Shown here: positions 10,577 to 55,662 of the stretch, piece after piece
Layout: each line of letters begins with the position of its first letter
How positions within the stretch are numbered: the first letter of the stretch is position 1
Origin: an uncultured Pelagibacteraceae bacterium
Lineage (GTDB): Bacteria > Pseudomonadota > Alphaproteobacteria > Pelagibacterales > Pelagibacteraceae
DNA length: 64,000 bases
Reading direction: 5' to 3'
NCBI GenBank assembly: GCA_902563575.1
Contig: CACEXV010000001.1
Span: forward strand, 124,001 to 188,000
Made by a program: the position numbers and the translations under genes
The notes under the pieces: generated by a model
Told to the model about the DNA's origin: nothing
Databases searched by the model: none
Seen by the model: the letters and a program-made list of their open reading frames with translations, nothing else

Positions 10577-10830
10577 TAATTAAAAAAACTCCTTAAATTT
10601 AAAAATTCACTATTAACCATATAATATATTCCAATAAAAAGAACGCTAGTTAAGATTGTTGTATAAATAAATTTTTTTCCAATATTGGGATTTTTTGGTG
10701 ATCCGGGATCAGCTCCTCTTATATCTTCAGTAAATTTTCTATTATCATGTTTTATACCTATAGGCAAAAATGAAAAAAAAACAATCCACCAAATAATAAC
10801 ATATACAACTATTGATCCAGTTAACGACAT
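10576..10830 (-). CDS. DUF1467 family small membrane protein
   Basis: An 84-residue protein with two predicted membrane helices (about 6–25 and 54–70) joined by a polar loop containing the family's DIRGADPGSPKNP-like segment. DUF1467 proteins occur in alphaproteobacteria next to rnj and proS, exactly as here; function is unknown. Overlaps of 1 bp on both sides suggest tight translational coupling. The family assignment is from memory of the motif and context. Confidence 0.8.
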   Translation of the reverse strand: MSLTGSIVVYVIIWWIVFFSFLPIGIKHDNRKFTEDIRGADPGSPKNPNIGKKFIYTTILTSVLFIGIYYMVNSEFLNLRSFFN

Positions 10831-12491
10831 TATAATCTCGCGATATTTATATTGGTATAAGGTTTTTTCCCTGTTTTATCTTTTATAAGTCTTCTACAAT
10901 TGTTTTTAATACTTTCTATCAAATTTTTTTCATGTTTTTTATTTTCTAGAGAAAAGGATTTACAAACTTTATGAATTTCTCCTTCCATGTCGAAAATTAT
11001 ATCATCTACATCTTCCTCTTTATTTGGGATACCCTTGAAGGAAATTATTGGTTTTGTTAACTTTCCTGAGTCTGATATTATGATTGTTACTTCAAGATAT
11101 CCATTAGATGCTAAATTTCTTCGCTCTTTTATAGATCGAGATTCTGAATTTACACTTACTTCGCCATCTAAATACATTTTTCCAGAAGGTGCTTTATCCA
11201 CTATTTTTGCATTTTTCGAAGGTATTAATTTAATTATATCCCCATTTTCAACTTGTAATGAGTATGGTACCTGCATTTCTTTTGAAAATGATATGTGTTC
11301 TTTCATATGCCTGTGTTCTCCATGAACTGGGATAACACAATTTGGCTTTACCCATGAATACATATCTTTCAAATCGTCTCTGTTAGGATGACCTGAAACA
11401 TGAACAAAAGCATTTTCCTCAGTTATCAAATTAATATCTTTTTTTGTAATTAAATTTTGTAATTTATAAAGCTTCTTTTCATTACCAGGGATCATTTTTG
11501 AAGAAAAAATTATTGTATCTCCTGCCTCTATATATACGTCTGGATGAGTGTCATTTATTACTCTATTCGTTGCGCCCATTGGCTCACCCTGACTACCGGT
11601 GCAAAGAAAAATGATTTCCTCACGCGGTATTTTATTTGAGTCTTTAACGTCAATTGGTTCCAACAAATTTCCTAGATACCCGCATTGTCTTGCTGCCTTA
11701 TAAATTCTTAACATTGATCTACCAACTAAACATATTTTTCTATTAGTTTTTTTTGCACAATAAAAAACTGTTTCCATTCTTGCAACATTAGAGGCAAATG
11801 ATGTGACTATAATTTTTTTTTTTTGTTTTTCTATTATGTTTAATAAACTATCACGAACATCTGATTCTGAACCAGCTCTACCCGGATATAAAACATTTGT
11901 AGAGTCGCAAATCATTGCGATAACCCCTTTTTTTCCTATCTCAATTAATTTTTGTTTATCAATATTATTACCAATGAGAGGGTTGGGGTCAATTTTCCAG
12001 TCGCCTGTATGAAGAACTGTACCTAGTGGAGTATTAATACTAAGACCATTAGGTTCAAGAATAGAATGAGTTAATGTCACAAAATCTATATTAAATGGAC
12101 CAAGCTTTAAATTACTGTTTAATTGAACAATTTTTATTTTACTGCTAATGTCAATTTTTTTTTCTTTGAACTTTTCCTGAACTAACACAGCGGTAAATGG
12201 AGTAGCATAAATATTACAATTTAGTTGCGGCCATATATGAGCTATGGCACCTATATGGTCTTCATGCGCATGGGTCAAAACTATTCCCAGTAAATCTTTT
12301 TTTTTATCAATTAGGAAACTCGGGTCTGGAAATATCAAATCAATGCCTGGTATTGAGTCGTCTGCAAATGTTACACCCATATCTACCACTATCCATTTCC
12401 TATTTTCCTCATTTCCATAGGCATAAAGATTCATATTCATCCCTATCTCACCTGAGCCTCCTAGCGGACAAAATAAAAGTTCATCTTTCAT
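10830..12491 (-). CDS. rnj: Ribonuclease J
   Basis: Metallo-beta-lactamase/beta-CASP nuclease with 5'-3' exo- and endonuclease activity on RNA. The metal-binding motif THAHEDHIGA is at about residues 72–81, followed by HTGDWKID, CDSTNVLYPGR, the beta-CASP segments, and the C-terminal HVSGHPNRDD and PVHGEHRHM motifs. The 553-residue length is normal. The window also carries an RNase E/G, so both RNA-decay enzymes coexist, as in several other alphaproteobacteria. It abuts coaX and overlaps the DUF1467 gene by 1 bp. Confidence 0.96.
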   Translation of the reverse strand: MKDELLFCPLGGSGEIGMNMNLYAYGNEENRKWIVVDMGVTFADDSIPGIDLIFPDPSFLIDKKKDLLGIVLTHAHEDHIGAIAHIWPQLNCNIYATPFTAVLVQEKFKEKKIDISSKIKIVQLNSNLKLGPFNIDFVTLTHSILEPNGLSINTPLGTVLHTGDWKIDPNPLIGNNIDKQKLIEIGKKGVIAMICDSTNVLYPGRAGSESDVRDSLLNIIEKQKKKIIVTSFASNVARMETVFYCAKKTNRKICLVGRSMLRIYKAARQCGYLGNLLEPIDVKDSNKIPREEIIFLCTGSQGEPMGATNRVINDTHPDVYIEAGDTIIFSSKMIPGNEKKLYKLQNLITKKDINLITEENAFVHVSGHPNRDDLKDMYSWVKPNCVIPVHGEHRHMKEHISFSKEMQVPYSLQVENGDIIKLIPSKNAKIVDKAPSGKMYLDGEVSVNSESRSIKERRNLASNGYLEVTIIISDSGKLTKPIISFKGIPNKEEDVDDIIFDMEGEIHKVCKSFSLENKKHEKNLIESIKNNCRRLIKDKTGKKPYTNINIARL

Positions 12492-53077: not shown

Positions 53078-54892
53078 ATGGAAAAAAATTTATACATCGA
53101 TGCATCGCATCCAGAGGAAACTCGAGTTGTACTTAAATCAAAATCTTCAATTGAAGAATATGAGTTTGAAGACAAAAACAAGGTAAATTTTAAAAACAAT
53201 ATTTATCTTGGAGTGGTAAGTAGAGTTGAACCATCCTTACAAGCTGCATTTATTGACTTTGGAAGAATTAAACACGGTTTTTTAGCATTCAATGATATTC
53301 AATCGGACTATTATCAAATACCAGCAGAAGATAAAGAAAAATTAAAAGATATAGAGGAAAAAATTCGTGAAGATTTGAAAAATAAAACTTTGGATAATTC
53401 CTCATCTGAAGATGACATTAATCAAAATTACGAAAAGACTAAAACTATAGAGGAAAATAAAGATATAAAAAATAAACCAGAAAATGAAAATAATTATAGA
53501 GAGACACTAAAAAAATCATATGGAGTTAGAAGATATAGAATTCAGGAGGTAATTAAACCTGGTCAAGTAGTGCTAATACAAGTCCTAAAAGAAGAAAGAG
53601 GACAGAAAGGCGCCGCACTAACGACTTTTATTTCACTAGCAGGTAAATTTATAGTTTTAATGCCAAACACACCCAAGGGTGGAGGTATTTCCAGAAAGAT
53701 TTACAACTCAAATGAGAGAAGAAATATTAGAAATATATTAAATGAAATTGATATTCCAAAAAGTATGGGAGTGATAGTAAGAACGGCAGGCGCTAATAAA
53801 ACAAAAAATGATATAGAAAAAGATTTCAAGTTTACTTTAAAAACTTGGGAAGAAATTAGAGACAAGGCAATCAAGTCCAATGCTCCTTCACTAATTTATG
53901 AAGAGGGTGAAATTATCAGAAGAGCTCTTAGAGATATTTATGATAATGAAACTAAATATATTTATATTGACGGGAACGACGGCTACCAGAAGGCAAAAAA
54001 AATTATGAAGGAACTCATGCCAAGCAACGTAAAATTTATAAAGAAATATAGGGGAAAAATTCCTCTTTTTCACGACTCTGGAATTGAAAAAGAGTTGAAT
54101 AATATATTTGAACCAACTGTAAAATTAAAATCTGGAGGTTATTTGGTAATTAATCCAACCGAGGCTTTAGTCGCTATTGATATTAATTCAGGCCAATCAA
54201 CAAAACAAATGAATATTGAAAAAACCGCTCTCAATACAAATATTGAGGCCGCCGAAGAAATTTCAAGACAGATAAAGTTAAGGGATTTGTCTGGTCTTAT
54301 AGTGATAGACTTTATTGATATGGCCAACTTCTATAACAAACGGATAGTTGAAAAAAAGATGAAAGAAAGTATTAGAAAAGATAGAGCTAGAATACAGGTA
54401 GGAAGAATAAGTAATTTTGGTCTTTTGGAGATGACACGGCAAAGATTAAGAGAAGGATCTATTAAATGGGAAACTAATTTATCACTTGAGTCATTTTCTC
54501 AACAAATTATAAAAAAAATTGAAATGTTGGCTTTTACAAACAAGATAAAAATTGTGAAAGCACAAATACCAGAAAAAGCTAAAATTTATATTGAAAATAA
54601 GTTAGATAAAGAGTTGAATTATTTTCAAAAAAAATTTCAGTATAAAATAAATTTAATAGGAGATATTAGCATGATTATCCCGGAATATAAGATAGATTTG
54701 ATGAACAAAAATAATAAAATTTTAAAAACCTTCGAGCATTTAAGAAAAATATCTCTTAAAGATAAAATTATTGAAAAAAATATTAAAGATAAAACTAAAG
54801 GATTAGAATTAAAATCAGGTCAAAAAACAAAATTAGTTAAAAAGAAACAAGCTCCAAAAACATTGTGGGTTAGAAGAAAAAAAGCGAGTTAA
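53078..54892 (+). CDS. rng: Ribonuclease E/G, short form
   Basis: Endoribonuclease for mRNA decay and rRNA/tRNA processing. The S1 domain is split by a charged insertion (residues about 85–150, many Glu/Lys/Asn) as in RNase E. The DNase I-like catalytic core has [14 protein letters not shown] (metal Asp about 367) and [14 protein letters not shown] (Asp about 411). The zinc-link CPxC motif expected at about 458–468 is absent; the chain runs [19 protein letters not shown]. At 604 residues it lacks the long C-terminal degradosome scaffold; the tail is Lys-rich. Whether it should be called rne or rng is uncertain. Confidence 0.9.
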
Positions 54893-55662
54893 ATCAAACC
54901 TTTTTTTGGAGAACTTGCAATGCCAAAAAAATTCTTTTTCATTCTCCCAGCAAGAAATGATTTCCGTCCGGCCTTGACAGCATGTTTAAAGGATTTGGCC
55001 ATCATTGTAGGGTCTCGCGCCATGGCGATCGCGCTATTAATAAGAACGCCATCACATCCTAACTCCATAGCCACTGTTGCATCTGATGCTGTTCCTATTC
55101 CAGCATCTACTATGACTGGAACTTTTGACTTTTTTATAATTAATGAAATATTAATTTTATTTTGTATTCCAAGTCCAGAACCTATTGGGGAAGCGAGTGG
55201 CATTATAGCAGATGCTCCACAATCCTCTAAGATTTTTGCTTGAATAGGATCATCGCTACAATAAACCATTACTTTGAAACCCTCTTTAACTAATATTTTT
55301 GTTGAATTAATTGTCTCAATCATATTTGGGTAAAGAGTTCTTTTGTCACCAAGAACCTCCAATTTAACTAAATTCCAGCCTCCCATTTCTCTAGCAAGTC
55401 TTAGTGTTCTTAAAGCCTCTTTTGAATTATAACATCCCGCAGTATTTGGTAGATATAGATATTTTTTTGGACTCAAATAGTCAGATAACATGGGTTTTTT
55501 TTTATCAAGAATATTTACTCGTCTTACAGCTACTGTTACTATTTCTGCTCCTGATGAAGATATTGCATCACAAGTTTGCTTGAAATTTTTATACTTTCCA
55601 GTTCCAACGATTAAGCGAGATTTAAATTTTTTGTTGCTTATCTTTAAGTAATCTTTAATCAA
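54889..55662 (-). CDS. thiG: Thiazole synthase ThiG
   Basis: Makes the thiazole phosphate of thiamine from DXP, dehydroglycine and the ThiS thiocarboxylate. The 257-residue TIM barrel has [12 protein letters not shown] (about 15–26), [15 protein letters not shown] (Schiff-base Lys about 99), [20 protein letters not shown] and [10 protein letters not shown]. The start is TTG at 55662, preceded at 5 bp by GGAGG contributed by the last thiS codons. The stop codon overlaps that of the converging RNase E/G gene. Confidence 0.94.

Follow-up and report, generated by a model that had tools for sequence, protein, structure and literature searches.

In RNase E of the Pelagibacterales (SAR11), the zinc link is missing, and its position is taken by a short linker with one invariant Trp and one invariant Leu. 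All 175 Pelagibacterales loci whose sequence extends to this site lack the CPxCxGxG motif; they represent 138 distinct proteins from 10 genera and 2 families. W and L are present at every one of these loci and in all 10 genera sampled, and on the tree the linker has a single origin. The catalytic residues, the 5′ sensor and the small domain are retained. The zinc link is regarded as a conserved organizer of RNase E assembly; here a whole order, and an abundant one among the Alphaproteobacteria, lacks the motif but has an otherwise complete core. In a paper from 2025, CxxC is described as well conserved throughout the alphaproteobacteria (excerpt of PMC12510024), and the short RNase E of the Rickettsidae, Pelagibacterales included, has already been noted (excerpt of PMC5436854); the titles and abstract openings of the literature searched contain no report of zinc-link loss in SAR11 RNase E.

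The RNase E gene and its protein

The window, i.e., the whole 64,000-nt stretch of DNA that was analyzed, holds one rne gene, whose parts are as follows.

53078..54892, +: rne, RNase E/G of 604 aa, an intact ORF with no cysteine and no zinc link (profile matches, translation)
53324..53521, +: charged S1 insertion, residues ~83-148 (sequence, AF2 model)
53780..53785, +: R235-T236, the 5′-sensor pair, equivalent to E. coli R169-T170 (alignment)
54113..54451, +: DNase I-like subdomain, residues 346-458 (limits taken from the E. coli enzyme)
54179..54181, +: catalytic D368, equivalent to E. coli D303 (alignment)
54308..54310, +: catalytic D411, equivalent to E. coli D346 (alignment)
54452..54487, +: replacement linker, residues 459-470, at the site of CxxCxG in most other alphaproteobacteria read
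54467..54469, +: W464, found in 175/175 SAR11 loci reaching the site
54479..54481, +: L468, found in the same 175/175 loci
54488..54745, +: small thioredoxin-like domain (PF20833), residues ~471-556, fast-evolving (Pfam match)
54746..54889, +: short basic tail, where many relatives have a long C-terminal region (sequence)

The protein matches TIGR00757 with 464.7 bits (cut-off 325.95), PF10150 with E=1.4e-97 (326.8 bits, cut-off 25.5) and PF20833 with E=1.5e-6 (28.7 bits, cut-off 26.8). Taken alone, PF00575 scores 21.2, slightly below its cut-off of 22; the S1 domain and the 5′ sensor are present in the AF2 model, which aligns with Caulobacter crescentus RNase E (4oxp) over 196 residues with Z 24.8 and rmsd 1.9. 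The window protein is the only RNase E/G above the TIGR00757 cut-off in the window's genome, which is 83.7% complete. An earlier sequence-only reading held that both catalytic Asp motifs and the charged S1 insertion had been kept, and both statements stand: in the alignment to E. coli RNase E, D368 and D411 fall on AIDINS and IVIDFIDM, and the insertion is modeled as a long helix (83-113) with a low-confidence stretch at 119-136. The same reading saw the chain pass from TRQRLRE into a segment free of cysteine, with CPxC gone. The translation bears this out: TRQRLRE occupies residues 453-459, a cysteine-free stretch comes next, and none of the 604 residues is Cys, an outcome with a chance of 0.0017 at the 1.05% Cys of the window ORFs (a crude estimate for one protein).

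The chain continues for about 48 residues beyond the small domain, and the long disordered degradosome scaffold is absent. C-termini of the form LW[VIFT]R[RK]K occur in the window's genus and in one further genus (g283), whereas the remaining four genera of that family have no Trp at this point. In the second family, five of the six proteins examined (L108, L114, L120, L123, L285) end in KKTGWW, a likeness to the GWW of Caulobacter RNase E, which binds PNPase. An opposite-strand ORF (54889-55662, −), presumably thiG, shares four bases with the end of rne, the two genes lying tail to tail. Elsewhere in the window, RNase J is encoded at 10830-12491 (−; TIGR00649 above cut-off); this SAR11 genome thus has both RNase E and RNase J.

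Loss of the zinc link across Pelagibacterales

In an alignment with other alphaproteobacteria, RQRLR of SAR11 RNase E runs directly into the short linker; relative to alphaproteobacterial rows with CxxCxG, the change is an in-frame net loss of 11 residues. An RNase E frame was found at 180 SAR11 loci, five of which stop short of the site (L094, L098, L099, L101, L102). The remaining 175, some of which may come from identical genomes, include the complete single-contig genomes L196-L199. The locus counts exclude L002, L231 and L233, which have no usable RNase E frame, and L301-L304. The comparison that the sequence-only reading had proposed, of Pelagibacterales with other alphaproteobacteria, finds the motif lost at every SAR11 locus reaching the site and CxxC kept in 107 of 117 others. 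The loss is genuine and clade-wide, and of sufficient age for both sampled Pelagibacterales families to share it.

Two accounts that would have refuted the sequence-only reading were considered and rejected. An assembly error in a single genome is ruled out by the 175/175 loci without the motif. A zinc site rebuilt from cysteines elsewhere in the chain is ruled out as well: the window protein has no Cys, and CxxC occurs nowhere in the chain of any of the 180 SAR11 RNase E proteins.

Profile searches give a coarser picture. The TIGR00757 match of the window protein ends at profile position 388 of 415. In the Pelagibacterales search, 132 of 147 genomes matched at E ≤ 1e-30 and no row reached position 409; the longest match (L281) extends to 405 and carries the W-linker. 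Among the matches listed for the class search (378 genomes matched), and likewise among those listed for the phylum sample, every row reached position 409-415. Class rows that end before position 400, re-inspected in 76 and 77 genomes, belong to SAR11, to one genome of family f119, to pieces or fragments, and to second matches that are short or score low; for a few of them, no other match exists in their genome. How far a match extends tells only roughly whether the zinc link is there, because four proteins of family f25 match to 414-415 although CxxC is absent. Conversely, the matches of L201-L204 end at 404-408, yet CxxC is present on reading. Rows reaching 409-415 do not prove CxxC; only the loci read do, and the term CxxC-type is used here as a sequence label, with no claim of zinc binding.

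The 117 non-SAR11 alphaproteobacterial loci read correspond to 114 distinct ones (three genes were taken twice), 104 of them with CxxC; many were chosen for short matches or small genomes, so that 107/117 is not a random rate. The SAR11-type W-linker occurs in none of the 117, and its uniqueness to SAR11 rests on this set. The ten loci without CxxC comprise five short paralogs, four members of f25 and one of f119. In f25 (L223, L266-L268; 4/4 read), CxxC was lost without a deletion, and the site reads EEGIISGIRC or EDGIISGIRC; the small domain is recognized in L223, the one f25 protein scanned. In f119 (L200), another deletion (SITEMQGSEVSALEVL) removed CxxC; it is known from a single genome, in which X letters lie outside the linker. 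On the tree described below, both losses are separate from that in SAR11. Since the zinc link has been lost by separate routes in two other lineages, its absence need not mean one particular assembly. The short paralogs (L226, L228, L229, L230, L232) are second RNase E/G genes of alphaproteobacteria; four of the five end no more than 34 residues past the site and thus have no small domain.

A replacement linker with invariant Trp and Leu

The SAR11 linker follows the pattern [RK][EQG]xx[IVL]xWxxxL. Among 101 SAR11 proteins below 90% identity, no position in residues 459-604 is fully invariant except W464 and L468. Trp fills the W464 column in 26/26 SAR11 proteins vs 0/59 aligned CxxC-type homologues; at the L468 column, 5% of CxxC-type rows have Leu too. 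Across the whole protein, only six columns reach 90% or more in SAR11 while staying at 10% or less in the 59 homologues. W464 is the sharpest of the six, and the four other than W464 and L468 (S48, K190, K241, N244) are mild changes or lie at variable sites. Six different codons encode L468 in 136 distinct SAR11 genes; the residue is therefore held at the protein level. Conservation of this kind marks the linker as a replacement with a sequence of its own, not a mere gap.

The W type forms one side of a branch with SH-aLRT 96 in a tree of 87 proteins, built by a quick method with the linker columns removed and with one f25 and one f119 row; on this tree, the three linker states need three changes. 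The W-type linker, as judged from this topology, arose once.

AF2 models were examined for the window protein (mean pLDDT 88.7) and for L108 of the second family, f2 (mean pLDDT 84.5); the two families are ~48% identical. In both models, isolated β-bridges fall exactly at W and L, i.e., at 464/468 in the window protein and 477/481 in L108, from which we infer a tight turn with W-L pairing. The bridge partners are unnamed in DSSP, and W may only anchor the linker within one chain. Against E. coli RNase E, the window model aligns over 385 residues (Z 32.7, rmsd 3.0) and the L108 model over 384 (Z 32.4, rmsd 3.3). The apo entry 2vmk_A aligns through the small domain to model residue 551, but with rmsd 15.2; among the top rows for L108, no structure match covers the small domain.

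Assembly without the zinc link

In E. coli RNase E, DNase I faces dominate the hydrophobic principal dimer interface, and residues 401-414 hold CPxCxGxG, with one zinc common to two protomers (excerpt of PMC2631609). One protomer can cleave an RNA whose 5′ end is bound by its partner (excerpt of PMC3997798), and the 5′ sensor is kept in SAR11. The DNase I domain is the best-conserved domain in SAR11 (mean entropy 0.47), and its identity between SAR11 and CxxC-type proteins (65%) equals that among CxxC-type proteins (65%). A replacement dimer contact, which the sequence-only reading had offered alongside a different oligomeric state, is indirectly supported by this undiverged domain together with the invariant Trp/Leu linker.

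The following reading is proposed. In the common ancestor of Pelagibacterales, the zinc knuckle (CPxCxGxG) that joins the large catalytic domain to the small one was deleted, and a short linker became fixed with its Trp and Leu four residues apart. The principal dimer would still form through the DNase I faces, while a β-turn clasp of Trp and Leu would take over the structural work of zinc by setting the exit of the small domain from the large one; the clasp may also pack against that of the partner. The enzyme would cut as usual, 5′-end sensing between two protomers included, with its assembly independent of zinc. For the core of this proposal, persistence of the dimer via DNase I faces with a Trp/Leu clasp in place of the shared zinc, we see even chances. 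A bolder version is put forward tentatively, as somewhat improbable: a metal-to-aromatic switch in which a hydrophobic Trp/Leu clasp replaced the shared zinc once, in the ancestor of the order, and keeps the same dimer, and through it the tetramer, together; what appears to be the only RNase E/G of the organism would then assemble independently of zinc.

Against the proposal, E. coli RNase E loses much of its activity when the zinc-link motif is absent. The small domain lends no argument for a tight tetramer contact, because it is poorly conserved: it evolves fast in SAR11, with 29% pairwise identity, and PF20833 is found at E ≤ 0.005 in nine of ten SAR11 proteins scanned, above the Pfam cut-off in five, with no match in the tenth (L123). 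An RNase E fragment from Caulobacter, with its CxxC, bound no zinc in vitro, as reported (excerpt of PMC12510024), so that what SAR11 replaced may never have bound zinc in alphaproteobacteria.

Alternative explanations

The W/L pair could instead be an intramolecular anchor that ties the shortened linker to its own large domain, in which case the enzyme would be a dimer or a monomer, would have lost the tetramer and would have gained no new contact. The AF2 bridges arise in single-chain predictions, as such an anchor would have it, and five of the six short alphaproteobacterial paralogs read lack CxxC, four of them the small domain also. In 2006 work attributed to Caruthers, a minimal E. coli peptide without the tetramer domain reportedly keeps core catalysis. 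SAR11 RNase E, however, retains the small domain, which is the dimer-dimer link in E. coli, and we hold the purely internal anchor to be unlikely, though worth serious weight.

SAR11 live in nutrient-poor water, and the motif could have been lost to save zinc or cysteine and sulfur, with the linker as a by-product. The absence of Cys from the window RNase E, vs a mean of 1.05% in the window ORFs, fits such thrift. Zinc saving is at odds with the retention in the window of the ClpX zinc finger (PF06689, E=2.3e-20), of the RNase J, which is of the metallo-lactamase family, and of a zinc-ribbon protein, and a by-product linker would not hold W and L invariant; we consider this account improbable. 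A general loss of zinc sites, considered separately, is unsupported within the 64,000 nt of the window, where these same three proteins are encoded.

Much less credible is a release from redox or copper control of the CxxC cysteines and the long scaffold: the tail of SAR11 RNase E is short, and copper oxidizes the Caulobacter CxxC cysteines, which affect RNase E condensates (excerpt of PMC12510024), but such a release accounts for the loss and not for the fixed Trp and Leu. Simple erosion of the motif during genome reduction, for which the absence of CxxC, with other letters at the site, from f25 (4/4 loci read) and f119 (1 locus) offers parallels, is the least credible account and is already weakened by the invariance seen in the 101 SAR11 proteins: erosion would not have left the same Trp and the same Leu fixed in two families that are ~48% identical.

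SAR11 RNase E is a natural test of what purpose the tetramer and the zinc link serve. It also bears on whether a hydrophobic contact can stand in for zinc where subunits meet. The two further lineages with other losses allow their linkers to be compared.

Comparison with known systems

The closest structural reference is E. coli RNase E (PDB 2bx2, 2c4r, 2vmk), which has in common with the window protein the fold, the catalytic Asp pair, the Arg-Thr of the 5′ sensor and the small domain. The E. coli enzyme has CPxCxGxG with its shared zinc, whereas the window protein has no Cys, a W/L linker and no long C-terminal scaffold. Among alphaproteobacteria, the SAR11 linker is 11 residues shorter than that of CxxC-type proteins. 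Caulobacter crescentus RNase E, known from the 4oxp fragment, is alphaproteobacterial and has the S1 insertion, as does the window protein, but keeps CxxC; its residues 1-575 are tetrameric and its C-terminal region, 566-898, is disordered (excerpts of PMC4245959 and PMC12510024).

Short alphaproteobacterial RNase E/G paralogs (354-463 aa, six read) resemble SAR11 RNase E in that five of the six lack CxxC; most of them stop soon after the site, whereas the SAR11 enzyme continues into the small domain. Cyanobacterial RNase E presents the opposite pattern, with the zinc link kept and the small domain absent (excerpt of PMC10989914). Like the SAR11 enzyme, it shows that natural RNase E can do without parts of the assembly region.
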